DNA of 34,318 nt, from assembly GCA_011389655.1 (NCBI GenBank), contig JAABTX010000029.1:1-34318 (forward strand). The letters are read 5' to 3'. The translations under genes and the position numbers were made by a program. Below the pieces are notes generated by a model. It did no database searches. It was given only the letters and a program-made list of their open reading frames with translations, and had not been told where the DNA came from. This DNA comes from Thioalkalivibrio sp. (lineage in GTDB: Bacteria > Pseudomonadota > Gammaproteobacteria > Ectothiorhodospirales > Ectothiorhodospiraceae). Position 1 is the stretch's first letter, and the number at the start of each line of letters is the position of its first letter. Shown here piece by piece: positions 30,118 to 34,318 of this stretch.

Positions 30118-30130
30118 AGAAACACCCCGC

Positions 30131-30164
30131 AAAAACGCCCCGCGCGGCGCTGGCCGGGCGGGGC
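30131..30164 (-). terminator. Intrinsic terminator after dsrE2
   Basis: On the minus strand GCCCCGC (30164-30158) pairs with GCGGGGC (30143-30137), with further GC pairing inside, followed by GTTTTT. It lies 20 bp past the dsrE2 stop and ends the minus-strand cluster. Confidence 0.8.
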
Positions 30165-30183: not shown

Positions 30184-30654
30184 TTACATGAACAGGCAGA
30201 TGTCCGACTCGCCGGCGAACTCGAAGAAGGCCGCGGCACCTGCATACTCCACGCCGTCGATGAAATCGCTGGTATCCATCTCGAAGAGATCGACGGTCAT
30301 CTGGCAGGCGATCATGCGCACGTCCGCCTCCAGGCAGAGATCGCGCAGGTCTTCCAGGCTGGCAACGCCCTTCGCCTTCATCTTCTGCTTCATCATTACC
30401 GTCATCATCTTCTGCATGCCCGGCAGCGTCTGCAGCAGCACGGGCACCGGCATCGGCATCGGCATGCCCGGGTTGCCGAGGGAACTGACCTGGAGGTCCA
30501 TGTTCTTCTTCAGCAACTGCAGGCCGTAGAACGTGAAGAAGACCTCCACGTCGTAGCCAAGCGCCGCCGCCGTAGAGGCCAGAATGAACGGAGGATAGCC
30601 CCAGTCGAGACTGCCCTTGGTCGCAATGATTGCCAGTTTCTTGGTGTCACTCAT
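30184..30654 (-). CDS. DsrE2-like DsrE/DsrF/TusD-family sulfur-trafficking protein
   Basis: A 156-aa protein of the DsrE/F/DrsH-like group. The ATG at 30654 is chosen (GGGGA 9 nt upstream; MSDTKKLAIIATKGSLDWGY is the conserved N-terminus). Conserved blocks are PFILASTAAALGYDVEVFFTFYGLQLL, the GMPMPMPVP loop, and RDLCLEADVRMIACQMTVDLF with cysteines in DLC and ACQ, ending SDICLFM. DsrE2 proteins carry persulfide sulfur and usually sit with rhodanese and TusA; neither is adjacent. Instead it ends a cluster with a 53-aa membrane protein, a dynamin-like GTPase and DUF302. A weak TTGCCG-N17-TACAAG (30749-30721, minus) could be an internal promoter. Confidence 0.92.
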   Translation of the reverse strand: MSDTKKLAIIATKGSLDWGYPPFILASTAAALGYDVEVFFTFYGLQLLKKNMDLQVSSLGNPGMPMPMPVPVLLQTLPGMQKMMTVMMKQKMKAKGVASLEDLRDLCLEADVRMIACQMTVDLFEMDTSDFIDGVEYAGAAAFFEFAGESDICLFM

Positions 30655-30762
30655 AGTTACTATCCCCAACTCGGTCGATTGATGGCATGGAGCGCGCTCT
30701 CGCGGGCGATCCATGAAGAACTTGTACACAGCCGGCTGGATTCCGGCAATCCGTGAAATACC

Positions 30763-30924
30763 CTAGACATTCCTTTTGGACGGCGAATCGAGCTGCCGAT
30801 CCCGCTGCCAGTCCCGTACCAGGGCACAGCCCGCACAGACACCCAGCGCAGCCAGGCTTGCCCATACTGAAATGGGCACCAGTACCATCGCCAGAATAAA
30901 CATGATCCATGCCAGAATTGTCAT
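30763..30924 (-). CDS. 53-aa small membrane protein upstream of dsrE2
   Basis: A short ORF, ATG at 30924 to TAG at 30763-30765. An excellent ribosome site, GAGAGGTGG, ends 1 nt before the ATG, with the AGAGG core 4 nt away. The protein has a hydrophobic N-terminal half (begins MTILAWIMFILAMVLVPIS, then VWASLAALGVCAGCALV), long enough for one or two membrane segments with a CxxC (CAGC), then a charged tail (RDWQRDRQLDSPSKRNV). It lies 108 bp upstream of dsrE2 on the same strand and 93 bp after the dynamin-like gene. No family is recognised. The CxxC in or at the membrane suggests thiol chemistry, which is inference. Confidence 0.75.
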   Translation of the reverse strand: MTILAWIMFILAMVLVPISVWASLAALGVCAGCALVRDWQRDRQLDSPSKRNV

Positions 30925-30935
30925 TCCACCTCTCT

Positions 30936-30953
30936 CCCATGCGCTCGCATGGG
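30936..30953 (-). promoter_or_regulatory. Palindrome before the 53-aa ORF (operator or leader hairpin)
   Basis: CCCATGCG and CGCATGGG form a perfect 8-bp inverted repeat around two bases, directly upstream of the ribosome site at about 30926-30935. It lies inside the predicted leader, so it may be an operator for a dimeric regulator or an RNA hairpin controlling translation. Confidence 0.45.
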
Positions 30954-30969
30954 TTTCTTCAAGTCTTGA

Positions 30970-30999
30970 ATTTCACCCGGAACCGCAGGCGACAGTCAA
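30970..30999 (-). promoter_or_regulatory. Candidate sigma-70 promoter for the 53-aa ORF and dsrE2
   Basis: On the minus strand TTGACT (30999-30994) is followed after 18 bp by TGAAAT (30975-30970). RNA would start near 30962, leaving a leader of about 38 nt that contains the palindrome at 30936-30953. It lies in the only gap after the GTPase gene. It allows dsrE2 and the small gene to be expressed apart from the upstream genes. Confidence 0.4.
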
Positions 31000-31017
31000 C
31001 CTGGCGCCGGTGACATG

Positions 31018-32562
31018 TCATCCCTGGCTCCGTTGTTCCTCCGGGCCGACCGCGTCCCCGGCCTCTTCTCGCGCCGGTTGTTCTGCCTCGCCCACGCTGC
31101 CCCTGGCCCCGCTCGCGGTCATGCCGGCGACGGGCGCCTCCTCGTCCATGAACTGATTGTTCAGACGCTGCACGAAGCCCTCCACCTGATCGCGCAGGTC
31201 GTGCAGCTGACGCAACGAGCGGCGGCCAAGCCCCACGGGCGACCTGCGGAAGATCGAACGCCAGAACACGGTATTCTTGCGGAAGGCCGCTCGCCAGTTT
31301 CCGGACGAGGACTCTTCCGGCAGGGAACGGGCCACCCGCCGTGCAACCCAACCGCGGTTGATGAAGTGAATTCCCGCCAGCACGACCAGCAGCAGCACCA
31401 CCGCCAGCACCGAGATGACCGGACGGTCCCCCACCGTCTCCAGCATGGTGCCGTCGAACCACGGCGCGAAGCCTCCGGTCAGCGCCTGAGCCCCCCACAC
31501 CACCAGCGCGAGCACGATGGCCATCAACACCACGTCGGCGCGCACGACATTGCGGCGCCAGCGCGCCATGGCGCTCTGCAGCGCCGGCCGGACATCCATC
31601 TCGATGGACTCCGCGATCGCCTGCATCGCACCCACGATGCGATAGGAACGGGAGGAACTGATCTCCGCGATCTTGGCGTGAATCTCCTCGCGATCGCGCG
31701 ATGCCTTGTGCTCGTACCGGGTGCGCACCTTGTCGTCGCCGATCTCCACCGCCGCACCCTTGTTGTACAGGCAGTAGAACCGGCCGGTGGCATTGCCCTG
31801 CCGCACCACCGCACGCTGCCAGGCCGAGACCACCTCCTCGAGGTTGTCCTCACGCCAGGTGGTGTCGATCATGTTCAGCACGAAGACCAGCTTGGTGAAG
31901 TCGTTGCGCGCCGCGACCCGATTGACCAGGTGTTCGAGGGTATCGCGCATTGCGCCCGGCTCCGGGTGCCGGGCATCGAAGAACACCAGCACCAGATCCG
32001 ACAGATCGATGATGTGGTCGGTCAGCTGCAGGATGGTCGCGCGCTGCTCGTCGGCGTCGAATCCGGGGGAATCGATCAGGATGCGTCCCCGCAGCCGGTC
32101 CGCCCTCACGGTCTTCATCGCGAGGAAGTGATCCACCGTGCGGCCGCCGCCGTCGCTGAGACGCTCGATCTCGTGACTGACCCGGTAGAAGGGGAAGCGC
32201 GGATCACCGTCGAGCGCCAGCCCCGGCAGTTCCTTCACCTTTTCGCTGGAACCGTAGCTGATGACCGTGAACCGGTCATCCACGGCCTGGCTCCCGCTGC
32301 GTTGCACTTCCTTGCCGATGTAATCGTTGATGAAGGTGGACTTTCCGGCTGAAAACGTGCCCAGCACGGCGATCATCGGCCACCAGGAAATGGTGAAGGC
32401 GTAGGAATCCTCTTCGGGGTCGAGGAGACCGGCGCCATAGCCAATCCGGTCCAGCATCCGGAACGGATCCACGATCCCCTCGAGTGCCGGGTTCTCCTCG
32501 GAAAGCCGATCGCTGAGGAGCGCCAGCTGCTGGTTTACGCGATTGCCGGGACGATTGAACAT
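31018..32562 (-). CDS. Dynamin-like membrane GTPase
   Basis: A 514-aa protein; the ATG at 32562 follows AGGGTGG at 5-6 nt (a GTG at 32571 is less likely). The GTPase domain has G1 GTFSAGKST (about 68-76), a G2 threonine in DDRFTVISYG, G3 DSPGFD (about 164-169) and G4 NMID (about 230-233). The long helical stretch after it, then two membrane segments (near 342-358 and 382-402) and an amphipathic C-terminal part, fit the bacterial dynamin family (cf. EHD or LeoA-like). Such proteins remodel membranes. It follows the coiled-coil membrane protein by 37 bp. The combination with a sulfur-carrier gene is unusual, and its target membrane is unknown. Confidence 0.85.
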   Translation of the reverse strand: MFNRPGNRVNQQLALLSDRLSEENPALEGIVDPFRMLDRIGYGAGLLDPEEDSYAFTISWWPMIAVLGTFSAGKSTFINDYIGKEVQRSGSQAVDDRFTVISYGSSEKVKELPGLALDGDPRFPFYRVSHEIERLSDGGGRTVDHFLAMKTVRADRLRGRILIDSPGFDADEQRATILQLTDHIIDLSDLVLVFFDARHPEPGAMRDTLEHLVNRVAARNDFTKLVFVLNMIDTTWREDNLEEVVSAWQRAVVRQGNATGRFYCLYNKGAAVEIGDDKVRTRYEHKASRDREEIHAKIAEISSSRSYRIVGAMQAIAESIEMDVRPALQSAMARWRRNVVRADVVLMAIVLALVVWGAQALTGGFAPWFDGTMLETVGDRPVISVLAVVLLLVVLAGIHFINRGWVARRVARSLPEESSSGNWRAAFRKNTVFWRSIFRRSPVGLGRRSLRQLHDLRDQVEGFVQRLNNQFMDEEAPVAGMTASGARGSVGEAEQPAREEAGDAVGPEEQRSQG

Positions 32563-32599
32563 CAGGACCACCCTGAGGCCGTGGTGAATCAGTGCCGTG

Positions 32600-33133
32600 T
32601 CAGCGGCTGTTCGAGTGTGCCGGGAAATAGGGGCCGGGCGACCCCGGGAATGGTCCCTGATTGCCGCCGAGCGGATTGAACATGTTCATCATACCCAGCG
32701 GCCCGGACACGTTGCGGTTCAGACTCCACATATCACGCTGCATATTCAGCGTCGACCCCGCCATCGTGGTGGTGTCGTTGGCCATGCTGCGGATATTCGT
32801 GTTCATGCTGGTAAGGTCCCGGGTCATTGAACCGATGTTGCGATTCATCATCACCATGTTGTCGCTGATCGTCAGCATGCGTTCGTCGATGTCGCCCATC
32901 TTCGTGGCCATCACCACCATCTCGCGGTCGATCGTACGGGTCATTGCGGACATCTCGATCACCAGGCGGTTCACGTCCCGGGTCAGGCTCGTGATCAGCC
33001 AGAATCCGTAGACGGCAAGCACCACGAAGGCCACCAGCGAGGAATAGACGATCAGCTGCAGACGGCGGGACCGGACATCGTACTCGTCGGGGTCCTCGAG
33101 GCGCGCATCATTGCGGTCATTGAAACTGCTCAT
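32600..33133 (-). CDS. Met-rich coiled-coil inner-membrane protein
   Basis: 177 aa with an acidic, charged N-terminal tail (about 1-25), one membrane segment (about 26-50, LIVYSSLVAFVVLAVYGFWLI), and a long coiled coil (about 55-145) in which Met often recurs every seven residues (IGSMTRDLTSMNTNIRSM). I count 19 Met, 18 of them in or after the coil. The end is a Pro/Gly-rich tail (GGNQGPFPGSPGPYFP). The topology places the coil outside (periplasm) or inside depending on orientation, which is not certain. Its ATGA overlaps the stop of the DUF302 gene. No catalytic motif is seen; it resembles MCP-like or tethering coiled coils. It is probably a structural partner of the GTPase. Confidence 0.8.
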   Translation of the reverse strand: MSSFNDRNDARLEDPDEYDVRSRRLQLIVYSSLVAFVVLAVYGFWLITSLTRDVNRLVIEMSAMTRTIDREMVVMATKMGDIDERMLTISDNMVMMNRNIGSMTRDLTSMNTNIRSMANDTTTMAGSTLNMQRDMWSLNRNVSGPLGMMNMFNPLGGNQGPFPGSPGPYFPAHSNSR

Positions 33134-33759
33134 GAGGTGAATCCACCCAGCATCGGTTCGTTACGGGCATCGGCGCCCTGCGTGCCTGCCGCACGGTCGA
33201 CCATTTCCCGCAGCTGCGCCTGCAGTCCCGCCGCCCGTTCCTGCAGTGCAAGAGGCAGCGGGCGGCTCCCGTGCAGGACCAGGTCGAGATTCGGCACCAT
33301 CACCCAGAGATCGCCCGCCGACTCCTCGTACAGTGTCACCCGGCACGGAAGGTAGGCGGCGGTGGCCGGATTGTGACGCATCAGGTCAACCGCGAGATGC
33401 GGGTCGCAGAAGAGATAGACCTGCAGCAGCGGGAAGTCGTCCCGCAAGCGGGACCGGATCTCCTGCTGTACCGGGAGCATGCCGAGGGATTCCAGCCCGA
33501 GGTCGGCCGCCGCCTGTTCCAGGCTTCGCTCCACGTCGCCCGCGTCACGGCCCGGCACGACCTGGCGCCGGTAGACCAGCGCCTCCATCGCATCACCCGT
33601 GCGCAGAACGGTCTTCGCGACCTCGGTATAGACGCCCAGCGCGGACCCGTCGAGCCCCCGCGCCTTGTTGACATAGGGCTCGAACGCAAGGATCGCCGCG
33701 GCCAGCGCGACAAGCGCGAGGAGCCCGACAAGGGCGAGCAGGTTGCGGACGAGCCTCAT
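33130..33759 (-). CDS. DUF302-domain membrane-anchored protein
   Basis: 209 aa: one N-terminal membrane anchor (about 4-26, VRNLLALVGLLALVALAAA), a helical linker, then a DUF302 domain (about 85-175). The DUF302 signature is seen in RLRDDFPLLQVYLFCDPHLA, then HNPATAAYLPCRVTLYEE and GDLWVMVPN. DUF302 proteins are small alpha/beta domains of unknown function often found in sulfur oxidisers and other redox-active bacteria. The domain probably faces the periplasm. The stop overlaps the next gene by four bases, so the two are co-translated. Confidence 0.85.
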   Translation of the reverse strand: MRLVRNLLALVGLLALVALAAAILAFEPYVNKARGLDGSALGVYTEVAKTVLRTGDAMEALVYRRQVVPGRDAGDVERSLEQAAADLGLESLGMLPVQQEIRSRLRDDFPLLQVYLFCDPHLAVDLMRHNPATAAYLPCRVTLYEESAGDLWVMVPNLDLVLHGSRPLPLALQERAAGLQAQLREMVDRAAGTQGADARNEPMLGGFTS

Positions 33760-33865
33760 GCGCGGCTCCGGCGATACGCGTCAGCGTGTCCCCACGGCAG
33801 GCGATCATCCCCTCTGTAATGGGCAGGCACGGCATCTCGCATCAGACTGACGACAGCGTCGCATT

Positions 33866-34318
33866 CTACCTGAATCGCTCGAGATGCGAGCGTCCGGCCG
33901 GATGGAAGCGGTCGTACAACGGGGCGAGGCGCCGCAGCATCGGTGGCCGTTCCGCCTCGGGGAGGGCCTCCACCGCGGAATCGTAGGCCAGGAGCGCCGC
34001 GGCAAAATCGCCGGACAGGAAGTGGAGATTGCCCAGTTCGCCGTAGAGGTCCGCGCGCCCGGGCGCGTCATCCGGCAGTGCCCGCAGGCCGTCGGCCAGG
34101 ACGTCGGCCGCGGCCCGGGGTCCACGATCACGCTGGACGCTGCGTGCAAGGGCCATGAGGCCGGACACCGTCTCTGTCGCAGGCTCCGGCTCGGCCACAG
34201 GCTCGGGTTCCACCGCAGGCTCGGGCTCCGCCGCAGGCTCGGGCTCCGCCGCAGGCTCGGGCTCCGCCGCAGGCTCGGGCTCCGTTGCAGGCTCGGGCTC
34301 CGCCGCAGGCTCGGGTTC
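33866..34318 (-). CDS. TPR-repeat protein with PEPA repeat linker (5' end outside window)
   Basis: A reading frame open to the window edge, ending at 33866. The first part seen is a repetitive EPEPAA linker (about 8 units), then a folded C-terminal region of about 100 aa with TPR-like helices: RGPRAAADVLADGLRALPDDAPGRADLYGELGNLHFLSGDFAAALLAYDSAVEALP. This suits a protein with an N-terminal membrane or domain part beyond the window, a Pro-rich linker and a TPR scaffold. An internal in-frame GTG at 34213 begins a shorter ORF and is not needed. It is the first gene of the minus-strand run that leads into DUF302 (106-bp gap). Confidence 0.75.
   Translation of the reverse strand, partial: EPEPAAEPEPATEPEPAAEPEPAAEPEPAAEPEPAVEPEPVAEPEPATETVSGLMALARSVQRDRGPRAAADVLADGLRALPDDAPGRADLYGELGNLHFLSGDFAAALLAYDSAVEALPEAERPPMLRRLAPLYDRFHPAGRSHLERFR
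34179..34318. repeat. 18-bp tandem repeats encoding EPEPAA
   Basis: Seven complete and one partial unit of GCAGGCTCGGGCTCCGCC (plus strand), four identical and the rest with one to a few changes, continuing to the window end. On the minus strand they code EPEPAA. Such in-frame repeats easily change length by slippage. Confidence 0.9.

Follow-up and report, generated by a model that had tools for sequence, protein, structure and literature searches.

The published descriptions of the coat proteins SgpA-D of Allochromatium vinosum (Pfam family PF17228) that we consulted treat them as such, and none speaks of an operon with dynamin, ParA or RND genes around them. It is an open question how bacteria form and place sulfur globules, how they share them out at division and how they mobilize them. 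Thioalkalivibrio is listed among the genera with enveloped intracellular globules (PMC10386293); for phototrophic Ectothiorhodospiraceae, sulfur deposition outside the cell and a lack of sulfur globule proteins are reported (PMC8877833). Here we describe a gene cluster in a 34,318-nucleotide stretch of a Thioalkalivibrio sp. genome (GenBank assembly GCA_011389655.1, contig JAABTX010000029.1; the whole stretch is called the window). Six closely packed, co-oriented minus-strand genes run from 34318 to 30184 and encode a TPR protein, a DUF302 protein, a transmembrane (TM)/coiled-coil protein, an EHD-like dynamin-family GTPase, a 53-amino-acid membrane peptide and the sulfur carrier DsrE2. Comparison with related genomes suggests, on balance, that these genes form the distal portion of an operon that makes, places or remodels sulfur globules, and that in Thioalkalivibrio DsrE2 may hand globule sulfur to the cytoplasmic sulfur relay.

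Components of this operon have relatives in described systems. ParA/McdA-type ATPases position cargos such as carboxysomes (PMC10241942, PMC12204374), structures exist for EHD and bacterial dynamin-like proteins and for DUF302 proteins, and dsrE2 is known from rhd-tusA-dsrE2 and tusA-dsrE2-sHdr clusters (PMC4175335, PMC6382920). Each protein family, ParA-positioned cargos and bacterial dynamins are already known; their combination with globule proteins appears new. The open literature (subscription journals were mostly outside the search) yielded no description of the operon itself or of a dynamin tied to sulfur globules: DUF302 with dynamin returned nothing, and sulfur globules with dynamin only a statement that SUP05 lacks dynamin. 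With this operon, globule biogenesis would have its first set of candidate genes. If our reading is true, a bacterial EHD-like dynamin gains a probable job, and the operon bears on how sulfur passes from a periplasmic store to cytoplasmic oxidation.

Operon organization in related genomes

Longer contigs of relatives extend the cluster upstream. Their gene order is adaptor, RND pump, one or two Gly/Tyr-rich secreted proteins, ParA-type ATPase and TPR protein, followed by a trio of DUF302, TM/coiled-coil and GTPase genes. Judged by this order, the six genes make up the 3' end of an operon that is both longer and widespread. In the genome of the window, the RND gene lies at the end of another contig (C216) and the RND-to-TPR stretch is unassembled; the ParA gene has no close copy among the assembled contigs, which we attribute to the gap between C216 and the window's own contig (C192). 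In a close relative, whose GTPase fragment is 95% identical, everything from RND to GTPase lies on one contig (L114). A preliminary description of the window had reported co-oriented dynamin, DUF302, coiled-coil, TPR and DsrE2 genes. Every part that it named was found, all on the same strand, but it overlooked the 53-amino-acid peptide, its TPR protein is incomplete, and what it described covers no more than the 3' part of the operon.

In a Thioalkalivibrio subgroup made up of T. thiocyanoxidans ARh2 and its relatives (L039, L045, L046, L047 and L070), the locus is without ParA, DUF302, coiled-coil and RND genes. Two gene-map clusters (c39 and c62) were set aside, as they look like spurious antisense open reading frames (ORFs) over Gly-rich genes.

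Association of the GTPase with sulfur globule proteins

Is the trio an oddity of Thioalkalivibrio? We rejected this idea after a GTPase profile search of 370 genomes of the class Gammaproteobacteria (273 genera) found the GTPase in 90 genomes and 65 genera. Among 40 fetched GTPase loci, 22 lie within an RND/ParA/TPR/DUF302/coiled-coil block, which is rarely complete; the remainder have fewer partners or the GTPase alone. SoxB or DsrE2 is encoded in all 22 examined operon-bearing genomes and in 80 of the 90 GTPase-bearing genomes.

Across the 370 genomes, the GTPase was associated with SoxB (odds ratio (OR), 10; P = 8e-18) and with DsrE2 (OR, 11; P = 3e-19). With PF17228 the OR was 72 (P = 6e-32), as 51 of 56 PF17228-positive genomes carry the GTPase, and inside SoxB-positive genomes it was still 30 (P = 5e-16). 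DsrE2 was more weakly associated with PF17228 than the GTPase was (OR, 9). At the family level, 25 of the 26 PF17228-positive families carry the GTPase, with a family total of about 173 assumed on the basis of the highest label. The association persisted when PF17228 matches near the GTPase were excluded (44 of 49 genomes); hence, it is not due to the operon's own genes. Within the order to which Thioalkalivibrio belongs, the GTPase and above-cut-off PF17228 matches were both limited to Thioalkalivibrio and Thiorhodospira. Both were absent from three other genera of the order (g2, g3 and g4), where one genome had a sub-cut-off match. The GTPase might be suggested as a genomic marker that tells globule storage from extracellular deposition.

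The secreted Gly/Tyr-rich proteins of the operon match the family of SgpA-D themselves, at up to 56 bits. In six of seven tested loci they exceeded the PF17228 cut-off of 26.7 bits (27.7 to 56.2 bits), and the seventh scored 25.7. A second PF17228 test gave 35.4 bits for one genus member and 22.8 to 26.3 for three others, and three shuffles of a genus member's globule-like protein gave no PF17228 match. The possible role in sulfur-globule handling that the preliminary description had raised is therefore well supported by association, through these operon proteins and the family-level distribution of the GTPase. We consider action of the operon on globules the best supported step of the mechanism proposed below, above the individual roles.

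Several observations weigh against this interpretation. The association tests ignore kinship, with no tree correction, and PF17228 is a repetitive, low-complexity model. No PF17228 match was found in 39 of the 90 GTPase genomes, and 10 of the 90 have neither SoxB nor DsrE2; conversely, five PF17228-positive genomes lack a GTPase even at an E value of 1e-3. Strains of the T. thiocyanoxidans type retain GTPase and DsrE2, yet PF17228 matches are absent from four of their five genomes; the fifth (G024) keeps ParA, DUF302, coiled-coil and RND genes at a second locus, where its only PF17228 match lies. In two Wenzhouxiangella assemblies, the GTPase gene stands outside any such operon. Finally, the globule-like and ParA genes of the window's own genome are lost in the assembly gap.

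DsrE2 and the sulfur relay

The dsrE2 gene (30184..30654, minus strand) encodes a 156-amino-acid protein that scores 291.9 bits with the equivalog model NF047629 (cut-off, 210). As the single match over the cut-off, it is the only full DsrE2 of this genome. Its Cys107 and Cys117 lie in an LC...AC pattern, as in the examined homologues; we infer that they are equivalent to the two strictly conserved cysteines of the DsrE2A subgroup (PMC4175335). The protein belongs to the same family as the DsrE2 of the described rhd-tusA and tusA-sHdr clusters, and the genome encodes a Rhd-TusA-sHdr-LbpA-DsrE3 cluster (contig C334; L118). However, dsrE2 is absent from that cluster, is unlinked to tusA or rhd-tusA, and sits with the dynamin operon. 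For Thioalkalivibrio K90mix, the relocation of a 'dsrE' gene away from the rhd-tusA-hdr cluster has been noted; the passages on it do not analyze the new neighbors (PMC3368412). In other families, TusA precedes dsrE2 in 13 of 18 fetched loci, and Rhd or HdrC stands beside it in 2 more. That dsrE2 normally sits with rhodanese and TusA and here with membrane proteins, as first remarked in the preliminary description, thus agrees with 15 of 18 other-family loci in which TusA, Rhd or sHdr genes adjoin it.

How general is the link to the GTPase? Among genus genomes with both genes assembled at the locus, this one included, DsrE2 follows the GTPase on the same strand in 27 of 27, at a distance of 367 to 711 bp. 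Since the genes are adjacent and co-oriented in every one of these genomes, the arrangement is not due to chance. Beyond these genomes, adjacency was found in one metagenome-assembled genome (MAG; L097), and DsrE2 adjoined the GTPase at none of the 40 fetched loci of the wider survey. A lack of co-occurrence between trio and dsrE2, which the preliminary description had named as refuting its reading, was not what we saw: adjacency holds throughout the genus and dsrE2 is present in 73 of the 90 GTPase genomes. In many other families, however, it lies elsewhere in the genome. Sulfur-oxidizing Gammaproteobacteria have a core operon with a conserved gene block, mostly without DsrE2. Because other families have the RND/ParA/TPR/DUF302/coiled-coil/GTPase block without dsrE2, which stands by TusA, Rhd or HdrC there, we regard the block as the core and DsrE2 as a lineage-specific addition, and we rejected DsrE2 as a core member.

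Perhaps DsrE2 is simply a passenger, moved once, in one ancestor, from a tusA-dsrE2-sHdr operon, perhaps for co-expression, and physically unconnected to the GTPase and DUF302 proteins? We consider this quite possible, if short of probable; it concerns DsrE2 alone and is compatible with a globule role for the rest of the operon. The dsrE2-free core operons of other families speak for it, as do the intergenic gap between GTPase and DsrE2 and the greater conservation of DsrE2 across the order (77 to 97% identity between best copies per genome, against 51 to 95% for the GTPase), expected of a protein with a separate job. The stability of the linkage speaks against it. Flanking genes differ among strain groups and the block moves as a unit, so that the linkage outlasts relocation to different chromosomal contexts. 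It also outlasts a split of the locus in G024, where both of the partial copies close with a small peptide and a DsrE2 of their own, and it recurs in the MAG, where the GTPase is only 57% identical and the gene order is the same, small peptide and DsrE2 included.

The small peptide (30763..30924, minus strand; 53 amino acids) lies directly upstream of dsrE2. Its CxGC motif (Cys30 and Cys33) is kept in all copies. It is present at every genus locus that has DsrE2 there, in L040 and in L097 (59 bits); it was found in no other fetched locus, and in these operons it always lies just upstream of dsrE2. We can only guess that it acts as a membrane sulfur or redox relay.

A second pairing comes from two genomes of another family (G220 and G087; loci L173:2342-4172 and L174:4113-5783). 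In both, the gene directly after DsrE2 encodes a secreted Met/Asn-rich repeat protein whose C-terminal domain is DUF302 and which has the same FC...PC cysteines as the DUF302 protein of the window; next come genes for a Met-rich protein that carries CxxCH and for a YeeE-like transporter. This pairing provides independent support for a connection between DUF302 and DsrE2.

General export as an alternative

Could the RND/ParA/dynamin operon instead be a general envelope or export system of sulfur-oxidizing Gammaproteobacteria, with globule proteins co-occurring through a shared lifestyle? Its cargo would be Gly/Tyr/Pro-rich secreted proteins, hydrophobic compounds or surface structures. The RND and adaptor genes at the head of the operon fit such a system, and several of the operon's secreted proteins are Pro/Met-rich and not globule-like. 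In many genomes, moreover, the GTPase stands beside a MreBCD/GatCAB-like gene row, as judged by gene sizes only. A shared lifestyle does not readily explain why the PF17228 association holds within SoxB-positive genomes and exceeds that between DsrE2 and PF17228, nor why some of the operon's own products pass the PF17228 cut-off. We regard this alternative as unlikely. In several families, the interval from the globule-like gene to ParA (or TPR) also holds the gene of a further secreted protein of about 250 amino acids (L130:3691-4455, L133:1524-2258 and L142:10896-11678).

The GTPase

The GTPase gene (31018..32562, minus strand) most likely starts at ATG 32562 and encodes 514 amino acids, with a firm assignment to Dynamin_N (58.7 bits; gathering score, 27). 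It has a GTFSAGKST P-loop and DSPG and N(Q/M)ID motifs. By sequence its nearest solved relatives in the PDB are EHD4 and EHD2, and its relatives in named sequence records come mostly from Thioalkalivibrio. An AlphaFold2 (AF2) model built from 37 homologues (pLDDT 83) had its best fold match in EHD4 (5mtv), followed by IniA, mitofusins and bacterial dynamin-like proteins. A long helical stalk is predicted to lead into a C-terminal two-TM hairpin (hydrophobic segments 347-365 and 386-404, numbered on the 517-amino-acid ORF from GTG 32571). No EH domain was matched in the protein, and the region past the hairpin is short and disordered at its end. Since it has no EH domain, we call it EHD-like and do not count it as a true EHD protein. 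It shares the fold of the GTPase, the P-loop and the topology of the stalk with EHD4, IniA, the DLP pair 5owv, BDLP and LeoA; unlike these, the window's GTPase combines a bacterial origin with a C-terminal two-TM hairpin, lacks an EH domain, and belongs to an operon that holds ParA and globule-like proteins.

One might instead take the GTPase for a dynamin of general membrane maintenance (surveillance or fission) whose operon context is secondary. This would agree with its fold relation to the general bacterial dynamins IniA, BDLP and LeoA and with the loci at which it lacks operon partners (some of the 40, and those of Wenzhouxiangella), but it is improbable given SoxB or DsrE2 in most GTPase genomes and the GTPase in 25 of 26 PF17228 families.

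Two Wenzhouxiangella assemblies and a gammaproteobacterial MAG (L081, L083 and L086) have operon-free GTPases that are 76 to 79% identical to that of Thioalkalivibrio and may represent recent transfer or mis-binned contigs. In Thiorhodospira sibirica (L100:10001-11470), the GTPase gene follows lepA, lepB-like and rnc genes, in the usual place of era.

Other operon proteins

The DUF302 protein (33130..33759, minus strand; 209 amino acids) has an N-terminal TM segment at residues 7-25 and is firmly assigned (55.8 bits; Pfam cut-off, 23). An alignment of 14 homologues showed Cys118 and Cys139 to be invariant. Its AF2 model (pLDDT 88) matches the fold of the DUF302 structures 1q9u and 1j3m (TM-score to target, 0.68 to 0.81); in contrast to these, its subfamily is membrane anchored and carries the invariant FC...PC cysteines. 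The gene overlaps by 4 bp with that of the TM/coiled-coil protein (32600..33133, minus strand; 177 amino acids), which has a TM segment at residues 33-51 by hydropathy and matched no Pfam family. The latter forms a conserved cluster within the genus, has profile matches in further families, and ends in a conserved C-terminal segment, MQRDMWSLNRNVSGPxGMMN.

The TPR protein (33866..34318, minus strand) is represented by its C-terminal 150 amino acids only, because the contig stops at 34318; its assignment is weak (TPR models, E about 5e-4). Full-length homologues in relatives have 207 to 423 amino acids, with an N-terminal TM anchor, a long acidic/Pro-Ala repeat linker and a C-terminal TPR.

The ParA-type ATPase of relatives has a KGGTGKS Walker A motif. 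Like ParA/McdA systems, the operon pairs it with candidate membrane adaptors; unlike them, the ATPase falls short of the NF041546 partition-ATPase cut-off (138 bits against 180). No ParB-like or McdB neighbor was recognized in the gene maps. By sequence, we call it ParA-like only; its adaptor could be the TPR or the coiled-coil protein.

Proposed function

The secreted globule-like proteins may coat periplasmic sulfur, in a compartment served by the RND pump. Together with the TPR and coiled-coil proteins as membrane adaptors, ParA would determine where along the nucleoid the membrane domain that bears the globule lies, and the dynamin-like GTPase would give the inner membrane its shape around this globule. 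DsrE2 and the CxGC peptide would have joined the 3' end of the operon in Thioalkalivibrio, and sulfane sulfur set free at the globule membrane might pass through DsrE2 to the Rhd-TusA-sHdr relay in the cytoplasm. A membrane platform for sulfur delivery by DsrE2, as the preliminary description put it, is a plausible inference. More tentatively, we propose that gammaproteobacterial globules are run as organelles by a dedicated set of ParA, TPR, DUF302, coiled-coil, RND and EHD-like dynamin proteins with coat proteins, and that Thioalkalivibrio has wired them to the sulfur relay through the CxGC peptide and DsrE2.

Minor features of the locus

A perfect 8-bp inverted repeat, CCCATGCG-CT-CGCATGGG, lies at 30936-30953 between the GTPase and small-peptide genes and is terminator-like on the plus strand. 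We rejected this 18-bp palindrome as a conserved operator: the nearest relative has it, but the genus as a whole does not. A GTG start for dsrE2 at 30729 was also rejected, as homologues begin at ATG 30654. Beyond the 3' end of dsrE2, a possible terminator was read from the sequence at 30130..30164 (minus strand; GCCCCG...CGGGGC followed by a T-run). A terminator scan gave a weaker stem at 30144-30128 instead, with a number of sites not above that in shuffles. The next gene past dsrE2 is a convergent dnaE2, which the putative terminator faces.

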